Shown in pieces: positions 2,530 through 25,847 of a DNA stretch of 27,640 nt; position 1 is the first letter of the stretch; every line of letters starts with the position of its first letter. The stretch lies in the IMG/VR virus record IMGVR_UViG_3300010938_000122, positions 1 through 27,640 of that record; one strand, written 5' to 3'. The position numbers and the translations under genes are program-made. The stretch comes from a virus. The notes under the pieces were generated by a model. It did no database searches, had not been told where the DNA came from, and saw only the letters and a list, made by a program, of their open reading frames with translations.

Positions 2530-4574
2530 CTTAGCACCCCACGGTAGACACGGAAAGAATTGAGCCAGATATCATAGGCAAAAGAGGTCCCTGGATTGAC
2601 GAAATAAAGATAAGATTGTGCTGCACTTAATTTGCCTGTTCCACTGCCTGCTGCCTGATTATTCCAAGCACCGTTCCAATAACACGCGACATCATTATTT
2701 CCAGACGAATAAAACCCAGTTTGGTAATCTGTGTTGGCGCTAGGAATTGGATTAGTAAGGTTAGTGCATCTAGTGCCAAGGGCATTGTCGAAAAGACAGA
2801 CCTGTGGTTTTTTATCTAGCTCACGTATAAATACCACAAACGAATTTGCAGAACCATAACCACCATTTGTAAAAAATAGTTTTCTTTCTGCAATTTCGCT
2901 CCCACTATACGGTATGCGGAAATTAAAAGTAGCTGTCGTTGCTCCGTTGGCACTGAATGGCGAAGCAGTAGATATAATTGTTGGCGAGCACGCTGCGCTC
3001 CCCGCCGCATTGGCACCGCAGAAAGCATCGACTTTGGGATAATTACCTACCGCCCGCATCATCGCCGCGTCTATTGCTACGCTCTGCGCTGCGCCGGCAG
3101 GGAGAGCAATGCGAAATTGCGCCCTCTGCGTCGATGCCTGCGTTGTGATCGTGCCGGCAATGTTCTGCGTGCCACCAAGGCGAGTCCAGATCAAGCCGGG
3201 CACAGCGTCATTAACTACGCTGGTAGTAGTAGTCAGAGTCGCGCAGCCAGTATCAGAGTATTCGAGCAGGTCAATATCGACTTTGCCCGTGCCCGAGATG
3301 AGTTTTGCCCAGACAGACAGCTCGTATAACGTGCTTGCACTAACCGTCAGGCAGCCAGTCGTTAGACTGACTGCGTCGTCAGCATCGGCCAGCGTGCAGA
3401 GAGCCGACGAGGCCCCGACTGCCATGTGGTCTGTAGTCTGCGCGCAATCGCCAGTCGATGTAACAGTCTCGGTCCAGCCGGTCGGGACGCCAGAAGCCCA
3501 GCTCTCAAATGTAGAGTAAGGGACTAGATTCGTAATCGCCGACGCACCATAGAGTCCGCCACTCCCGCTCGCCGGCGAACCAACCATATTCGTGTAGCTC
3601 GGAAGCTGCATCAAAAACGGCTGAACACCGCTATAAGGCGGAGCAAGCATAATCGCAGAGCAAGTAGAGCAATAAGTCGAAACAGTGTTTTGCGCGGCGC
3701 TGTCAATCATGCCGCGGAACATGGCGTGCATTTTTTCATGCTGTGCTTGTGTAATAAAAATCCCGTCGTAATATGCACAGAAGAGAATTTGGCCGGAAAA
3801 ATATCTATAGATACTACTATCATACATCCCAACATTTATACTCGTAGAAGAGTTAAATGGAGGACCCGGAGCGTTGCTTATTGAATAGCAGTTGTTCGCG
3901 TTGGCGCATAACTGCATAATCGAGTTTCCATCGCTTATATAATGATACGAACCAGTAGCAAAACCAATTTGCCCACTAGCACACCCAGATCTGTATATAG
4001 CTGTTTGAGTTATTCCATCTTTGGATACATAGAAGTAAAAATTTAAATTACCACCGCGATAAAGCATCCAAGTGCGCTGATTGGTAGGTTCTTTCCATTT
4101 TGAAAAAATCCCAGTGAATTGATCCCCAGTCGTTCCATTTACCGCGCACACCACCGAAAAATCCCCGCTCGGGTCGAAATCATCCCCACTGGCGCTGTCG
4201 GACAGGCTAAGGTAATCCGAAGTCCCGTTAAACTTCCAGGCATATCCCATCGTCCCGCTGAGGCCGTTAGGATATGTGCCATCATTTACTCGCACCGGCG
4301 AGCCATTGACCGTAAAAACATAAGGAGCATGCGGCCCCGTGCCGACCTCGGCAGTGTAAGTCGCGCCTACAGCTTGATCGAAGAATACGACAAGCCGCGG
4401 TTGTCCCGGCACCGTCAGCATCGCCATCGTCTCGCCTGAATGCGTAAAGGGATAGGAGCGGACGAGACGGCCTTTGTCGAGCCAGCCGCCGGCGCCCGTC
4501 TGGTCCTGCGGGGCAAACACACCGCAGAGAACCAGTAGCCACACCCAACCGGGTATGCGTCTGGTTAGAGACAT
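2526..4574 (-). CDS. LamG-like fibre or lectin with N-terminal signal
   Basis: A 682-residue protein. Residues 8-22 are hydrophobic (WVWLLVLCGVF) behind two arginines, like a signal peptide. From about 111 to 290 there is a LamG/concanavalin-like jellyroll (YAWKFNGTSDYLSLSDS, then DFSVVCAVN). A region at about 350-510 begins with NLVPYSTFESWASG, like carbohydrate-binding modules in phage fibres, and a second jellyroll-like domain runs from about 540 to the end. The likely role is binding sugars on the host surface, as a tail fibre or spike. The ATG has GGAGG seven bases upstream. An export signal and many cysteines are unusual for a tail fibre that assembles in the cytoplasm, so a secreted or membrane-held lectin is a real alternative. 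Confidence 0.65.
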   Translation of the reverse strand: MSLTRRIPGWVWLLVLCGVFAPQDQTGAGGWLDKGRLVRSYPFTHSGETMAMLTVPGQPRLVVFFDQAVGATYTAEVGTGPHAPYVFTVNGSPVRVNDGTYPNGLSGTMGYAWKFNGTSDYLSLSDSASGDDFDPSGDFSVVCAVNGTTGDQFTGIFSKWKEPTNQRTWMLYRGGNLNFYFYVSKDGITQTAIYRSGCASGQIGFATGSYHYISDGNSIMQLCANANNCYSISNAPGPPFNSSTSINVGMYDSSIYRYFSGQILFCAYYDGIFITQAQHEKMHAMFRGMIDSAAQNTVSTYCSTCSAIMLAPPYSGVQPFLMQLPSYTNMVGSPASGSGGLYGASAITNLVPYSTFESWASGVPTGWTETVTSTGDCAQTTDHMAVGASSALCTLADADDAVSLTTGCLTVSASTLYELSVWAKLISGTGKVDIDLLEYSDTGCATLTTTTSVVNDAVPGLIWTRLGGTQNIAGTITTQASTQRAQFRIALPAGAAQSVAIDAAMMRAVGNYPKVDAFCGANAAGSAACSPTIISTASPFSANGATTATFNFRIPYSGSEIAERKLFFTNGGYGSANSFVVFIRELDKKPQVCLFDNALGTRCTNLTNPIPSANTDYQTGFYSSGNNDVACYWNGAWNNQAAGSGTGKLSAAQSYLYFVNPGTSFAYDIWLNSFRVYRGVLR

Positions 4575-20099: not shown

Positions 20100-20493
20100 T
20101 AATCAGTCCCTCTAGTTCATCAGTTGAGAGAGCCGACAAATCAAATTTATTTCTCATTTTCGAGACGTCGATAACAAGATCACGGCGCGCCCAGCGCTCG
20201 GGCCAACGGCGTTCGAGTAACCAGGCAGCCGCCTGCCACTGTTTTTGTGCGGCCGTTTGAACGGTCTGAACCAGCGCAAGTTCGCTTTCCGCAACGGCTT
20301 TTTTAACTTCTGCATCAACGGCGGGGTCAGACCTACGCCACTCTCCCAACGTGCCCACGTGCATTCCTGCCAGCTTGGCGGCAGTGGTAAGTGTGACGCC
20401 TTGCCGGACAGCAGCAAGGATTTTTTCGAGTCTCTCTGGCGTGCGTTTAAGATGAGGATTTACAACATGTTTCTTTGGTTTTTCTTCTTGCAT
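20035..20493 (-). CDS. terS: Terminase small subunit
   Basis: A 152-residue protein. Residues about 18-55 form a helix-turn-helix (LEKILAAVRQGVTLTTAAKL, then MHVGTLGEWRRSDP), followed by a helical oligomerisation part with AAWLLERRWPERWARRD, a very characteristic small-terminase segment, and a charged C-terminus. It recognises the packaging site and stimulates the large subunit. The ATG at 20493 lies inside the end of the RuvC-like gene (34-base overlap) and has only a weak ribosome site, so translation may depend on the upstream gene. Confidence 0.85.
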   Translation of the reverse strand: MQEEKPKKHVVNPHLKRTPERLEKILAAVRQGVTLTTAAKLAGMHVGTLGEWRRSDPAVDAEVKKAVAESELALVQTVQTAAQKQWQAAAWLLERRWPERWARRDLVIDVSKMRNKFDLSALSTDELEGLISALEKAHCAEREGEHPSHKLQ

Positions 20494-21038
20494 GTTCTCA
20501 TGTTACCAGATTCTTTGGCCGCTGTCAAGAACAGTTTATCAAACGCAATAGCTAACGCCAGCGCTTGCCACAAATCATAATGGATGTGATACAATGGTCC
20601 AGGGGCTGCTTTGTTACCAAGCGCGTTTTCTTTTCCACCGTAAAGCTTGATAATAGCATATCGGATCATACTATCATTGGAGTTACAGCCAAGGTAGAAC
20701 ACCTGTTTTGCTCTCTGCCTCGGAAGTAGCGTAACTTTGTTGTTGCCAATCACATCTTCAATTGTCTGGCAGAACCGGCCAATCCACAGCACGGTGGTGA
20801 AAACATCTTTGCCTACAGGTAGGCCGTAACAGCTAACCATTTCTATTACAGGAACAAGCGACCGAAGCGGCAGCTCCCTCAATCTACCAATCAATTCAAA
20901 GTTGTCCAGGATTTCACCAACCACTTGGCCGCATTGCTGCACTATAACATAAGCACTGCGCTTGCTTCCCGGATCGATGGCGAGAATATCTTTGCTAAAG
21001 CTTACTGTTGGTTTCTTGCCACGGGGGAGCTCAGCCAT
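20460..21038 (-). CDS. RuvC-like Holliday junction resolvase (RNase H fold)
   Basis: A 192-residue protein with ILAIDPGSKRSAYVIV (Asp22), PVIEMV (Glu66) and HYDLWQALALAIA (Asp155), the acidic residues spaced as in RuvC-like nucleases. LLPRQRAKQVFYLG and the late APGPLY segment match phage forms of the family. It should cut branched DNA, clearing junctions before packaging, which fits its place as first gene ahead of the terminase genes. The open frame extends upstream, but ATG 21038 lies seven bases after a good -10 box (TATACT), so the message would be leaderless or nearly so. No ribosome site is seen before it. Confidence 0.8.
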   Translation of the reverse strand: MAELPRGKKPTVSFSKDILAIDPGSKRSAYVIVQQCGQVVGEILDNFELIGRLRELPLRSLVPVIEMVSCYGLPVGKDVFTTVLWIGRFCQTIEDVIGNNKVTLLPRQRAKQVFYLGCNSNDSMIRYAIIKLYGGKENALGNKAAPGPLYHIHYDLWQALALAIAFDKLFLTAAKESGNMRTCKKKNQRNML

Positions 21039-21045
21039 TGGCTCA

Positions 21046-21101: not shown

Positions 21102-21233
21102 ATGGTATTTTTTACCACAGCTCAACTATTTGAAAAATAAAGACTTCAAAAAAACAGGAATGGCAAAGTACCACACATGTTAGACACGTCTAACAAAAAA
21201 AAAGACTAATGTTTACAAAGGGTTACAGACAAG
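21102..21233 (+). repeat. Left copy of a 131-base direct repeat
   Basis: About 90% identical by eye to 22281-22411 in the same orientation. In order it has ATGGTATTTTTTACCACA, CTCAACTATTTGAAAAATAA, an A-rich part, an 18-base palindrome TGTTAGACACGTCTAACA (21178-21195), an A-run and ACTAATGTTTACAAAG. It lies between the leftward promoter and the iteron array. The two copies bracket the iteron array and the GC-rich stretch. Confidence 0.85.
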
Positions 21234-21333
21234 GGGAATTTCTATATAGGGCTTTCCCAGGAGAAATCTGTTTTTTGTCGTGAAGACCACCCATCCCCGG
21301 GGAATGGGGACCCGCGTCATTCTTAGCAAATTT

Positions 21334-21506
21334 TTGTAGACACGAACTTACAAAAAATAAAACAGACTATATGAAATCAAAAAACTTAACTCCTTGATTT
21401 ATAAGGGATCACGTTTTTTTTTGTAGACACGAACTTACAAAAAATAAAACAGACTATATGAAATCAAAAGGCTTAACTCCTTGATTTATAAGGGATCACG
21501 TTTTTT
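21334..21506 (+). repeat. Two tandem 86/87-base units beginning with the iteron
   Basis: Units 21334-21420 and 21421-21506 differ by two bases (AAAAAAC against AAAAGGC) and one T. Each starts with TTGTAGACACGAACTT and ends in GGGATCACG plus a T-run. A third iteron at 21507 and a fourth at 21593 continue the 86-base spacing, but the sequence between them is no longer alike. Confidence 0.9.
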
Positions 21507-21920
21507 TTGTAGACACGAACTTGGTGTCTTTAAAAAGTTCGTGTCTACAACTTTTTTTAGTAAAATCAAATAGTTAATTCACTTTTTATGCTTTGTAGAC
21601 ACGAACTTTAACAAATTTTTTTTTCACAAAAGAGTTACCACTTACGACTATATGTGTTTTGTCTCAAGTTCGTGTCTACAAACTCAAATAACTTATTGAT
21701 TCATAAAAGAAAACCTTGTAGACACGAACTTTTTTTACCCTCAAGTTCGTGTCTACAAAGTTTTCCACATATTTTTATATTTCAAGTATTTATATAACTT
21801 TTTGTAGACACGAACTTTCTTCTCTATATAGAGATTCCTGTTTTTTTTAATTTTCATAATCGAATCAACGGGTTATAGCTGTTTTTAGGTGTTTTAGTTC
21901 GTGTCTACTCGTGTCTACAA
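21334..21920. other. Iteron array, probable replication origin
   Basis: The 16-base sequence TTGTAGACACGAACTT occurs at 21334, 21421, 21507, 21593, 21716 and 21802 on the plus strand. Its exact reverse complement is at 21535, 21666 and 21743, and two overlapping partial reverse copies lie at 21896-21920. The forward copies are 87, 86, 86, 123 and 86 bases apart. The intervals are very AT-rich, and a 14-base palindrome TCTCTATATAGAGA lies at 21821-21834. Repeated initiator sites in AT-rich DNA next to primase and helicase genes are the usual signs of an origin. No protein can be named as the binder. A transcription control or packaging site is an alternative. Confidence 0.7.
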
Positions 21921-21946: not shown

Positions 21947-22295
21947 GGTATTTTTTACCCCACCCAGTAAGCTAGCTTATGGCAATGTACCAGTGTCAGC
22001 CGTGGCTTTATGGCCTCTTTGCTGGCCTGACCCATATCCCTCCCATACCCCCAGCAGCTCCAAAAGCGTCCTGGGCCACGGGATGGCTTTTGGCGGGCAT
22101 TGTAGCCATGCCGCCTGGCTCCCTGGCCACAAGCTGTCAATGCCAGCAACGCCAGCTAAGCAGCAGTGCCAGCAATGCGAAAAATAAAGACTTTTTTCTG
22201 ATATTGAGCAGCAAAGATCAATGGTGTGGTAATTTTACCATACCCTAATTGTTTGAAAAATAAAGGCAACCAAAAACGGTATGGTATTTTTTACC
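21947..22295. repeat. Recurring GGTA...TACC short inverted repeats
   Basis: GGTATTTTTTACC occurs at 21947-21959 and 22283-22295, with a variant GGTAATTTTACC at 22228-22239. A further copy lies outside this span at 21104-21116. Three of the four are followed by Cys/Ala-like ACCACA, ACCCCA or ACCATA bases, and two by the shared CTCAACTATTTGAAAAATAA. They could be operators for one regulator or part of the origin. Confidence 0.5.
21961..22190. other. GC-rich non-coding stretch inside the control region
   Basis: About 230 bases rich in G and C stand between AT-rich sequence on both sides. Open frames on both strands exist but lack ribosome sites and have unlikely compositions. Inverted segments ATGGCT (22082-22087) with AGCCAT (22105-22110) and several GCCAGCAA repeats near 22139-22180 suggest structured RNA or a remnant of other DNA. 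I see no known RNA family. Confidence 0.35.
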
Positions 22296-22411
22296 ACAAC
22301 TCAACTATTTGAAAAATAAAGACTTCAAAAAACAGGAATGGCAAAAATGCCACACTTGTTAGATATATCTAACAAAAAAGACTAATGTTTACAAAGAGTT
22401 ACAAACAACAG
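22281..22411 (+). repeat. Right copy of the 131-base direct repeat
   Basis: Partner of 21102-21233. Its palindrome reads TGTTAGATATATCTAACA (22357-22374), so the left and right arms changed together compared with the other copy. It ends in TTACAA (22399-22404), 16 bases before TATCTG (22421-22426), a weak promoter-like pair that could drive the first rightward leader. Confidence 0.85.
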
Positions 22412-22426
22412 GAGCTGGCATATCTG

Positions 22427-22463
22427 TTGCATACGTTATAGACCAGGAGTTGCGAGTATGCAA
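22427..22463 (+). promoter_or_regulatory. Inverted repeat covering the start of leader ORF 1
   Basis: TTGCATAC (22427-22434) and GTATGCAA (22456-22463) are perfect inverted arms around 21 bases that contain AGGAG (22445-22449). The ATG of the leader frame (22458) lies in the right arm. In RNA this would hide the start codon. In DNA it could be an operator. Confidence 0.5.
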
Positions 22464-22574
22464 ATCGACAACAGAAATAGCCCCGCAGCTCGCCGGCCAA
22501 CAAACCGCGTCTCTCGCACTCCTGGGTTGCGGGGTGTTCGGCCACCCTCTGGCCGGCAGGGTGGCTTTTTTTGA
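22458..22574 (+). CDS. Leader ORF 1, 38 codons, ending in the terminator T-run
   Basis: ATG 22458 has AGGAG eight bases upstream. The 38-residue product is basic, with eight arginines and five prolines (for example SPAARRPTNRVSRTPG) and ends SGRQGGFF, where the last codons are the T-run of the hairpin at 22541-22572 and the stop TGA is at 22572-22574. It ends 12 bases before the next gene's ATG. A ribosome translating it would melt the hairpin and could then restart on the gene behind it. This resembles leader peptides of attenuators, but the peptide could also be a gene product in its own right. A similar frame exists in the second leader, with its stop at the matching place. Confidence 0.45.
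   Translation: MQIDNRNSPAARRPTNRVSRTPGLRGVRPPSGRQGGFF
22481..22572 (+). terminator. Attenuator-like leader 1 with terminator hairpin
   Basis: The hairpin GCCACCCT / AGGGTGGC (22541-22548 with 22558-22565) has loop CTGGCCGGC and is followed by seven Ts. Upstream, GCCGGCCA (22492-22499) is a perfect complement of the loop (22550-22557). CCCCGCA (22481-22487) can pair with TGCGGGG (22528-22534), and GGGTG (22532-22536) with CACCC (22543-22547), which would break the terminator. These mutually exclusive pairings are typical of an attenuator. The hairpin starts 46 bases before the ATG of the next gene. Confidence 0.65.
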
Positions 22575-22586
22575 GAAGGAGCGAAG

Positions 22587-22826
22587 ATGGTAGCCACAGG
22601 GCAAAGGAGAGCAAAACTGCTTGTTTTGCTTGCCACCAAGCTGCTGGATTTCGGTCTGAAGCACAACGAAGTTTTACACTACCTGGCCCAAACCAATCGC
22701 GACGTCTGCCACCCACCGCTCAGTTCCGATGTTGTGCTCGACATCTTGCTGTATGTGCGTGGCCGGAGAAAGCTGCGCAGAATTAACGAGTCAAAACTAC
22801 TTGACATCGTCTCTGATTTGAAGTAG
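22587..22826 (+). CDS. PriCT-like mini-protein
   Basis: A 79-residue protein. Residues 5-45 align with residues 196-235 of the primase encoded just downstream: both have G-[QE]-R, a hydrophobic helix, then G-x-x-x-N-x-[VI]-[LI] and N-x-x-x-C-x-PPL, with 8 of 23 residues identical from the glycine to PPL and one gap before it. In the primase this is the PriCT-1-like segment behind the catalytic domain. Here it stands alone, without any catalytic residues. It may bind the primase's partner or DNA and so regulate priming. The ATG follows GAAGGAGCG. It is the first full gene of the rightward module and is preceded by an attenuator-like leader that has a relative before the primase gene. Confidence 0.7.
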   Translation: MVATGQRRAKLLVLLATKLLDFGLKHNEVLHYLAQTNRDVCHPPLSSDVVLDILLYVRGRRKLRRINESKLLDIVSDLK

Positions 22827-22829
22827 TAT
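22801..22829 (+). promoter_or_regulatory. Promoter for the second leader and primase gene
   Basis: TTGACA (22801-22806) and TAGTAT (22824-22829) are 17 bases apart, matching 6 and 4 of 6 consensus bases. The first base expected in RNA is near 22836, directly before the GTG of leader ORF 2. The -35 box lies inside the end of the mini-protein gene. The seven-base distance from -10 box to start codon equals that at the RuvC-like gene. Confidence 0.6.
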
Positions 22830-22836
22830 TGTTAAT

Positions 22837-22954
22837 GTGAGCTGGTTGAATGACGTAATAAATATTTGGTCTGCGGCAGCCAGCTGCTCGCCCGTATTCG
22901 GCTCACCCGCAGCCCAAAGTAAGCCGCGCTCTGGCTGGCGGCGCGGCGTTTTTT
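22837..22954 (+). terminator. Attenuator-like leader 2 with terminator hairpin
   Basis: The hairpin GCCGCGC / GCGCGGC (22923-22929 with 22941-22947, extended by a T-G pair) has loop CTGGCTGGC and a T-run to 22954. Upstream, CAGCCAG (22877-22883) is complementary to the loop (22931-22937), GCGGC (22873-22877) to the stem start (22923-22927), CTGCGG (22871-22876) to CCGCAG (22907-22912), and GTGAGC (22837-22842) to GCTCAC (22901-22906). The last two would cross as a pseudoknot. The hairpin starts 46 bases before the primase ATG, exactly as in leader 1. Confidence 0.65.
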
Positions 22955-22956
22955 AA
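22837..22956 (+). CDS. Leader ORF 2, 39 codons, ending in the terminator T-run
   Basis: GTG 22837 lies seven bases after the -10 box, so it would be read as a leaderless start. No ribosome site is present. The 39-residue frame includes WSAAASCSPVFGSPAAQ and ends SGWRRGVF with stop TAA at 22954-22956, 12 bases before the primase ATG. Leader ORF 1 ends SGRQGGFF at the equivalent base of its own hairpin, so frame and stop are aligned in both. Translation would disrupt the hairpin. It is weaker than leader ORF 1 because its start codon is GTG without a ribosome site. Confidence 0.35.
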   Translation: MSWLNDVINIWSAAASCSPVFGSPAAQSKPRSGWRRGVF

Positions 22957-22968
22957 GAAGAGGCGACG

Positions 22969-24333
22969 ATGAGTTTTTTAGAACACGCACTCTCTCTTGC
23001 GAAGAAGGGCTGGATGGTTTTTCCGCTGCTTCCGAAAGGGAAGACGCCTATACTTCCTGGTGGCTTCAAAAATGCTACCACAGACCCCACGCGGATAAAG
23101 GAATGGTGGGTGAAGTGGCCCGAGGCAAACATCGGCCTTGCAACCGGAATGTCCGGGTTGTTCGTAATAGATATTGACAGCGCTGATGCTGCAAAAGAGC
23201 TTTACAAAATCATGCCTGAGCTTGCTACATTGGTAACGCTTCGTGCGAAAACCAGCAAGGGGGAGCACATATATTTTAAATGCAAAGAAAACGAGTTTAA
23301 GTCTTGCACGTCCTTTGCTGGAGTGAAGGGGATCGATATTCGATGCACCGGTGGGTATGTAGTTGCGCCGCCGTCATTGCACCCAAGCGGCATGACTTAC
23401 ATCTGGAAACAGGAGTTGGAAACTGCATTAGTGCTCCCTGTTCCGGATGTAATTAGAGAAATCGCAACCAATGGTGTGCGAAAATCTGAGGCAGCCGCCG
23501 GTGACAAACTGGAGGCTGTGCTGGACGAAGAATTCGGCGAAAAAATCCTCGAAGGCGAGCGCAACAATCGGCTTACATCTTTCGCTGGCAAGCTGCGCCG
23601 GCTCGGTTACGGCGAGAACGCGATTATCCAACACCTGTTGTTATTCAACAACAATCGCTGCGACCCACCACTTGCCTTCAAAGAACTACAAACCATCGCG
23701 AAAAGCGTTTGCCGGTATCCGGCTGGTGGAAAGTCTGAAGAAAAGATCAATTTGAACTTTGAATCAGCAAAAATATTCAAAGGTGACCCGGCGCTCGTAG
23801 AACTGAAAATCAATAACTGTGTGCTCTGCTGTCCGGTGAGCATTTTCACATCGCCTAGGAGATTCGCAACAGTGTGGGAAAACAAATTCTTCCAAACACC
23901 TACATGGAAACATGCAAAATCCCGCGTTTGGGATAGTTTTGTCAATAGTGTTCTGGCTACGGCGGAAGTTGTTGACCTAGGCCCGCAGGCATTGACGGAG
24001 GAAGCAGCGAAAGAGAGGATAATGATTGGGCTTCGCTCAGCTAAGGTAGTAGAAGATCTGGATTTTTTAAGCACAACTGCATTGCATTTATATATTAAAG
24101 AATCCTACGCATACTTTCACTTCAATGCCATCGCGGATTATATGGAACTGCACGGGTATAAACTTTCGCGTATCGAGCTGTCAAGATTGTTGAGAAAGTG
24201 TGGCGCTCGCTGTGGGCGTGTTTGGGACGAGGGGGTGAAGATGCAAGTGAGACTTATGTATATTCCGTTTGACAAGCTTCGCCGGCCCGGTCTTGATAAG
24301 CCGTTCGAAAAAGACCATGAGTTTGATGTGTAG
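22969..24333 (+). CDS. Prim-pol type DNA primase/polymerase
   Basis: A 454-residue protein. Residues about 5-165 form the bifunctional primase-polymerase domain: PLLPKGKTPILPGGFKNAT, the metal site FVIDIDS (Asp68, Asp70), KGEHIYF (His100) and DIRCTGGYVVAPPS (Arg125). Residues about 193-250 are a PriCT-1-like segment (RLGYGENAIIQHLL, CDPPL). The C-terminal part contains a winged-helix-like region (ADYMELHGYKLSRIELSRLL). It should make primers, and perhaps extend them, at the nearby origin. Unlike D5-type or DnaB-fused forms it has no helicase domain, and the next gene supplies a helicase. The ATG follows AAGAAGAGGCG and the second attenuator-like leader. Confidence 0.85.
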   Translation: MSFLEHALSLAKKGWMVFPLLPKGKTPILPGGFKNATTDPTRIKEWWVKWPEANIGLATGMSGLFVIDIDSADAAKELYKIMPELATLVTLRAKTSKGEHIYFKCKENEFKSCTSFAGVKGIDIRCTGGYVVAPPSLHPSGMTYIWKQELETALVLPVPDVIREIATNGVRKSEAAAGDKLEAVLDEEFGEKILEGERNNRLTSFAGKLRRLGYGENAIIQHLLLFNNNRCDPPLAFKELQTIAKSVCRYPAGGKSEEKINLNFESAKIFKGDPALVELKINNCVLCCPVSIFTSPRRFATVWENKFFQTPTWKHAKSRVWDSFVNSVLATAEVVDLGPQALTEEAAKERIMIGLRSAKVVEDLDFLSTTALHLYIKESYAYFHFNAIADYMELHGYKLSRIELSRLLRKCGARCGRVWDEGVKMQVRLMYIPFDKLRRPGLDKPFEKDHEFDV

Positions 24334-24344
24334 GAAAGAAAAGA

Positions 24345-25847
24345 ATGGAGACAAAAATAATCATCGGGCCGCCCGGGACTGGAAAAACAACTACGCTTAT
24401 AAACGAAATGCAGGTGCTACTATCAACCTATTCACCAGAAGAGATAGCAGTGTGTTCGTTTACGCGCGCCGCAGCAGGCGAGGTGGCCGAGCGGGCGTCT
24501 TCGTTATCCTCCAAGCGCCTTGTGTTTGGAACCATACACAGCCTGTGTTTTCGTCTGCTAGGTCTTTCCCGCGGTTATTTCATGAATGTTGAGCGTTGGG
24601 AGCAGTTTGCCAATGAATACAATCTAGTGATTAGAAAAAATTTTATTCTAGGCACAAGCGAACCATCCAGTGACGACGAAAAAGCGCTAGCCTGCATTTT
24701 TTTTATTCAATCCCACGGCGAAGAAGTCGGTGAGTGGCCAGAGGGAAAAACAGGAAAATTACCCTATTACCCACAGTTTGGGATGCATTACATAAATCGA
24801 ATCAACACCATGTTAGAAGAATTCAAGCGCCGCAATGGGCTGGTGTATTTTAACGACCTGCTGAAGATGGTGCTGGAAGAAAGACTTTACTTGCCTGCAA
24901 AAGTGCTGCTTGTTGACGAAGCCCAGGATTTGTCTGCGCTCCAGGGAGCTGTTGTGGACATGTGGGCCGAGAAGCTCGATAAGCTAATTATCGCCGGGGA
25001 TGATGACCAGGCTGTGTATGAATGGTCCGGGGCCGACCCGAGCTGGCTGATTCGTAAAGCCAACAAGTTCGGATGCACAGTGTTAAAGCAGAGCTACCGG
25101 TTACCGAGTCAAATCCTTTCTCTGTGTATGCAAATTGCGCGTCGTATCTCTACGCGCGTTCCAAAACAATTTATTGCTGTGAAAGAAGGCGGCTCAGTTG
25201 ACCGGTTTTGCGTTAGCGACCGCGGTTACCTGATAAAAAAGTTGGCCCACAAAAATGTCCGGGTGCTGACACGTACAAACAATCTGATATCGGCTTGGGC
25301 AGAGTTGCTCGAAAAATGCAATATCCCGTGGGAAGCAGAGAGCCGCGAGGGCACCTACGGCTCGGTGTGGTCAGACTCCTATCTGGCTTCGGCTTTGTCA
25401 GCAATCAAAGATTTGTGTAGTGGTAAAGCACCGCCGCGAAATAATTTAGTAGCTTTGTTTTCTTTTATTCCTGCCAAGCATCCGCTCGCGCCCTGGGGAA
25501 TAAAAACAGATATAGCGGAAGGGCGCCCGATTGACCTGAGCCCACTTTTTGAGCAGGCTGCCAGAGACCCGTGGGGATTGCTAGTCAAGTTTGACCAGAA
25601 TAAGCTTGCGCAATTAAAGACTGTGGTAAAGGATTGGGCACTAGAAAGACCAAGATGGAAAATCAGCACGATCCACACAGCCAAAGGACGGGAGGCCGAC
25701 TATGTTATTGTTGACCACCCGATACCGAAACAACTGAAAGGTCTGTGGCGCCTGCCTGATTCAGAACACCGGGTCGCCTACACTGCGGCTTCCCGTGCTA
25801 GAGAAGGAGTCATTGTGTTAGATGAAAGACGATACTATTCTTACTGA
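24345..25847 (+). CDS. UvrD/Rep-like superfamily 1 DNA helicase
   Basis: A 500-residue protein with all SF1 helicase motifs: I GPPGTGKT (8-15), Ia CSFTRAAAGEV (37-47), II VDEAQD (190-195), III GDDDQAVYEWSGA (218-230), IV QSYRLP (249-254), V TIHTAKGREAD (442-452) and VI VAYTAASRA (477-485). It is shorter than UvrD (about 720 residues), with reduced insertion domains and no nuclease part. It should unwind DNA at the phage fork, working with the primase encoded 11 bases upstream. The ATG follows AGGAAAGAAAAG. Its last 26 bases overlap the next gene. Confidence 0.9.
   Translation: METKIIIGPPGTGKTTTLINEMQVLLSTYSPEEIAVCSFTRAAAGEVAERASSLSSKRLVFGTIHSLCFRLLGLSRGYFMNVERWEQFANEYNLVIRKNFILGTSEPSSDDEKALACIFFIQSHGEEVGEWPEGKTGKLPYYPQFGMHYINRINTMLEEFKRRNGLVYFNDLLKMVLEERLYLPAKVLLVDEAQDLSALQGAVVDMWAEKLDKLIIAGDDDQAVYEWSGADPSWLIRKANKFGCTVLKQSYRLPSQILSLCMQIARRISTRVPKQFIAVKEGGSVDRFCVSDRGYLIKKLAHKNVRVLTRTNNLISAWAELLEKCNIPWEAESREGTYGSVWSDSYLASALSAIKDLCSGKAPPRNNLVALFSFIPAKHPLAPWGIKTDIAEGRPIDLSPLFEQAARDPWGLLVKFDQNKLAQLKTVVKDWALERPRWKISTIHTAKGREADYVIVDHPIPKQLKGLWRLPDSEHRVAYTAASRAREGVIVLDERRYYSY

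Follow-up and report, generated by a model that had tools for sequence, protein, structure and literature searches.

Organization of the replication region

The window analyzed here, a virus record of 27,640 bases, carries TerL and portal-like genes on its minus strand and a replication module on its plus strand. The latter comprises orf79 (positions 22587 to 22826), whose 79-aa product returned no match in family searches, a Prim-Pol/PriCT_1 primase gene (22969 to 24333; 454 aa; Pfam PF09250, E value of 7e-40, and PF08708, E value of 6e-13), and, as the gene that follows the primase in the operon, a gene for a UvrD-like helicase (24345 to 25847; Pfam PF00580, E value of 1.5e-28).

The AT-rich non-coding region that adjoins the replication genes (21336 to 21908) contains ten occurrences of GTAGACACGAAC, six in forward and four in reverse orientation, and this array probably represents an iteron-type replication origin. 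A block of approximately 140 nt is present twice (21102 to 21237 and 22281 to 22413; 85 to 88% identical), each block carrying the palindrome TGTTAGA-N4-TCTAACA (at 21178 and 22357), which resembles a repressor operator. At 21960 to 22190, there is a GC-rich island, apparently non-coding, in which TGCCAGCAA-type words recur; its folding energy is ordinary (z score of -0.24), and Pfam gave no match for its 89-aa ORF.

Anatomy of the two leaders

Leader elements are located at about 22478 to 22572, preceding orf79, and 22866 to 22954, preceding the Prim-Pol gene, and both present, in the same order, a hairpin (A), a GC-rich hairpin (B), a run of six to seven T residues, a Shine-Dalgarno sequence, and the ATG start codon. 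In leader 1, the predicted hairpin A (22480 to 22535, plus strand) shows three compensatory pairs relative to leader 2 and includes the segment GCCGGCCA (22492 to 22499), which can pair with the loop of its own terminator and, through one G-U pair, with that of leader 2. Hairpin B of this leader has the form of an intrinsic terminator (22541 to 22572, plus strand), in which the arms GCCACCC and GGGTGGC enclose the loop TCTGGCCGGCA and are followed by T7. Leader 2, on the same strand, contains a hairpin A that was delineated by folding and by comparison with leader 1 (22866 to 22917), a loop complement, CAGCCAG (22877 to 22883), which lies partly within an inner helix, and a predicted intrinsic terminator (22923 to 22954) composed of the arms GCCGCGC and GCGCGGC, the loop TCTGGCTGGCG, and a G followed by T6. 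The loop of hairpin B is 11 nt in both leaders and conforms to TCTGGCYGGCR.

Spacing is conserved: the terminator hairpins start at 22541 and 22923, in each case 46 nt before the ATG (22587 and 22969), the T-runs end at 22572 and 22954, 15 nt before it, and the terminator stem is separated from the start codon by 21 to 22 nt. As this gap leaves no room for a promoter, orf79 and the Prim-Pol gene are expected to require read-through of the respective terminators. A promoter-like site, TTGACA-17-TAGTAT (22801 to 22829, plus strand), identified by consensus match only, is located 5′ of leader 2.

The coordinates, spacing, loops (CTGGCCGGC and CTGGCTGGC), and upstream complements (GCCGGCCA and CAGCCAG) reported in the initial annotation of this DNA were all recovered upon re-reading. 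The structure is larger than was described, since a preceding hairpin A is common to both leaders. Both leaders had furthermore been assigned to primase-type genes, a description which is correct for leader 2 (Prim-Pol) but not for leader 1, which precedes the 79-aa ORF of no known family.

Paralogy and covariation of the leaders

Over the 49 nt that extend from hairpin B to the ATG, the two copies align with no gap, 38 of 49 positions being identical and the score being 54, while 500 dinucleotide shuffles yielded a mean score of 19.6 (standard deviation, 3.0; maximum, 33). Because the observed score is far above those of the shuffles, the copies are considered paralogues, and the two leaders are, on the basis of this comparison, diverged copies of one element. 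The fact that the conserved 49 nt run through the Shine-Dalgarno sequence to the ATG would also suit a translation-enhancing cassette, in which the hairpin and U-run ahead of the Shine-Dalgarno sequence affect translation and not transcription; however, a strong GC stem followed by T6-7 is the classical form of a terminator, and hairpin A would be superfluous in such a cassette, which we regard as highly improbable.

The four substitutions between the terminator stems constitute two double changes, such that all seven pairs are kept, a result which four random substitutions among the 14 stem bases produce in about 0.4% of simulations, thus bearing out the earlier claim of matched stem changes with retained pairing. 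Of the eight pairs of hairpin A that can be compared, three differ in both bases, two differ in one base, and three are unchanged, while two further pairs of leader 1 lack a counterpart in leader 2; the register of this comparison was set by hand, as automatic alignment fails to match the 3′ arms. As homologues were not found, the covariation evidence derives from the two copies within this one genome. Read together, the copies are paralogous, with compensatory changes in both A and B, a conserved loop and spacing, and no promoter room. When 830 kb of phage DNA was scanned for a terminator combined with an upstream perfect loop complement of at least 7 nt, the two leaders were the only sites detected (0 to 1 sites in shuffled sequence). 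The folding energy of the whole leaders is not below that of shuffled sequences (z scores of -0.4 and +0.6).

Terminators of this kind are frequent in phage operons, and the two described here may be ordinary early terminators that are subject to a general antitermination system, in which case the loop or hairpin A would only provide a site of contact for a protein or for the polymerase, with the loop complement being incidental. Such a reading is consistent with the better conservation of the loop (9/11) than of the stem (10/14); however, an antiterminator gene was not recognized, and the complementary change between segment A and the loop (see below) argues against it, and we deem this explanation rather unlikely.

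Predicted folding of the terminators

In equilibrium folding, the leader 1 terminator forms with a probability of 0.97 to 0.99 for most 5′ ends and of 0.79 for the longest tried, compared with a mean of 0.43 when the upstream sequence is shuffled. Because the real upstream sequence of leader 1 outperforms shuffled sequence, hairpin A seems to act as an insulator with OFF as the default, rather than as an antiterminator, and the modeling suggests that it insulates the leader 1 terminator. The corresponding probability for leader 2 varies with the assumed 5′ end (0.46 to 0.99) and is 0.46 to 0.67 against competing folds if transcription starts near 22832 to 22840.

Leader 1 also contains a possible 38-codon ORF, MQIDNRNSPAARRPTNRVSRTPGLRGVRPPSGRQGGFF (22458 to 22574, plus strand), whose ATG at 22458 is accompanied by AGGAG and whose frame spans both hairpins before ending at a stop codon directly after the T-run. 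Its translation could open hairpin A and the terminator, so that read-through would track translation, as in ribosome-controlled attenuation. Leader 2, however, lacks such an ORF despite harboring both hairpins, an equally open frame occurs in 35% of shuffled stretches, and the ORF has no family match, and this form of control is considered very unlikely. The leader ORF was separately examined as a PF10554-like Ash/Icd candidate, which was rejected as the Pfam search returned no match.

Complementarity between segment A and the terminator loop

The complements GCCGGCCA and CAGCCAG, of 8 and 7 nt, are located 41 and 39 nt from their own terminators. In leader 1, loop residue C22554 pairs with G22495, and both positions are changed in leader 2, where T22936 pairs with A22878. 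When compared with shuffled hairpin A interiors, the complement is significant for leader 1 (P = 0.005; 0.5% of shuffles), whereas that of leader 2 is at chance level (8.9% of shuffles).

The complement covers the terminator loop and not the stem, and loop pairing and stem can, therefore, coexist. Forcing the loop pairing gives a near tie in leader 1 (-43.5 versus -44.2 kcal/mol) and a fold that is approximately 9 kcal/mol worse in leader 2 (-32.5 versus -41.2 kcal/mol). Because the near tie occurs only in leader 1, the loop-pairing alternative does not represent a switch common to both leaders. The mutually exclusive pairings invoked in the initial annotation appear to be a weak reading as formulated, given the position of the complement on the loop, a terminator probability of about 0.97 in leader 1, and the 9-kcal/mol penalty in leader 2. 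Its more general description of an attenuator-like leader nevertheless remains the best reading, in view of the terminator located 21 to 22 nt before the ATG, the lack of promoter room, and the compensatory change in RNA structure.

The loop complement also admits a relay acting in trans, in which the terminated transcript of leader 1 would be a small RNA that kisses the nascent B1 and B2 loops through its A-loop, GCCGGCCA, and thereby tunes read-through, much as IsrK acts on its own long transcript. Segment A1 fits loop B2 via one G-U pair, while A2 does not fit B1, and the predicted pairing energies, including opening costs, are about -11 kcal/mol for A1-B1 and -9.5 kcal/mol for A1-B2, as opposed to about -3.6 kcal/mol for A2-B2 and 0 kcal/mol for A2-B1. 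The loop change from C to T, which is accompanied by a complementary G-to-A change in segment A, is in keeping with such a relay. Set against this, the leader 2 loop complement taken alone is at chance level and a single contact covaries, and we judge the relay unlikely. Its more specific form, a self-regulating relay of one-way specificity (A1 acting on B1 and B2, and A2 on B2 only) in which loop kissing and not stem competition would govern the replication genes, appears less likely still.

Search for further copies

No third copy of the leader was detected in IMG/VR pattern scans, in related loci totaling about 2 Mb, or in 369 class-mate genomes, and phage and E. coli sequences, searched at the DNA and protein levels, yielded no leader homologues. 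When the primase, orf79, TerL, the helicase, and the ORF at 20460 to 21041 were used to scan IMG/VR, TerL alone identified a near relative, a contig (L005) which is 95% identical and ends before the leaders. Loop-motif patterns produced 3 and 39 matches in IMG/VR, none with a proper terminator stem. A model of the terminator cassette gave no credible match in 34 related records, 6 genomes, and the 369 class-mate genomes; 7 matches were obtained at an E value of 0.01, where about 4 are expected, the best being in a carboxysome-type shell-gene cluster. Rfam searches of the window and of the leader region retrieved no relevant family. Among 160 Prim-Pol loci, a terminator is located just before the gene in 3, and a long loop complement is present in one of these alone, a bacterial MAG locus (L247).

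Proposed function and comparison with known systems

We propose, with a probability of roughly 0.6, that the element is a termination-control leader present in two copies, which would be OFF by default and would work in the manner of the SeqA/IsrK control of P4. Each copy would consist of hairpin A and an intrinsic terminator, B, positioned at the ribosome-binding site of the gene that follows. Hairpin A would fold first and shield B from interference by upstream RNA, termination would be the default outcome, and orf79 and the Prim-Pol/helicase operon would be expressed via read-through, most likely triggered by a putative phage factor, an RNA or a protein, that targets either hairpin A or the conserved loop. 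The promoter-like site 5′ of leader 2 and the presence of replication genes downstream of the leaders support this proposal; termination in vivo, its regulation, and a role for contact between the A and B loops are inferred. If correct, the leaders would represent a second RNA design, unrelated to the first, for holding back phage replication genes via termination, and would be a rare natural case of a terminator loop, rather than a stem, serving as the regulatory contact; as the element is duplicated within one genome, covariation evidence is built in, and two switches are available for testing.

The plasmids pT181 and pIP501 likewise attenuate transcription within the leader of a replication (rep) gene; there, the terminator stem is the target of pairing by an upstream segment, and a convergent antisense RNA is employed. 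In contrast, the complement in the phage leaders covers the loop. No minus-strand promoter-like site was detected at 22300 to 23000 using the E. coli consensus, which may not be that of the host. The put elements of HK022 are two related two-hairpin leader elements within one phage and function as antitermination signals; they are set apart by description, as they are not terminators at a ribosome-binding site.

The L247 locus resembles the phage leaders in having a terminator 21 nt before the Prim-Pol ATG and an upstream loop complement of 12 to 14 nt with one G-U pair, but it is present in single copy and shares no sequence similarity with them. Its pairing is predicted to be exclusive, since the complement extends beyond the loop into the stem. 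As one among about 160 loci, it constitutes an analogy and not a trend. The attenuator-like leader at this locus (3850 to 3974), which precedes a Prim-Pol/helicase gene, has a folding z score of -4.1 and yields the only int-alpA (RF02996) match, below threshold; the phage leaders have none.

Rfam model RF01394 (IsrK/SeqA) gave no match in the window at E values up to 10, while it does detect SeqA in the P4 control record; similarly, RF01695 (C4/CI) detected C4 in the P4 record and gave no match in the window, where the operon region contains no complement of at least 10 nt to the leaders except for one 10-nt match at 24736. Because Rfam matches P4 and not the window, the leaders are suggested to work like P4 control while lying outside the IsrK and C4 families. 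RNA brakes on replication genes are already known, and this leader pair appears to correspond to no family described in Rfam. In the P4 record (L080), an annotated cI protein gene lies beside the C4 and IsrK/SeqA matches, both RNAs being missing from the annotation table.

In P4, premature termination, which involves the CI antisense RNA and the IsrK homologue SeqA, keeps the replication genes off (PMC4825925). The initial annotation had recognized no precedent for such a pair before primase-type genes; as P4 termination control precedes a primase, the leaders are less unprecedented than was then assumed. As in P4-type control, an intrinsic terminator is predicted in the leader of the primase operon (21 to 22 nt before the orf79 and Prim-Pol ATG codons). 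The likeness extends to a hairpin followed by a terminator in the leader of a primase-bound operon, to premature termination, as proposed here, holding the replication genes off, and to a short ORF and a further control site before the primase. What sets the present system apart from that of P4 is the presence of two copies of the leader itself and a large terminator loop with complementarity to the hairpin A that precedes it.
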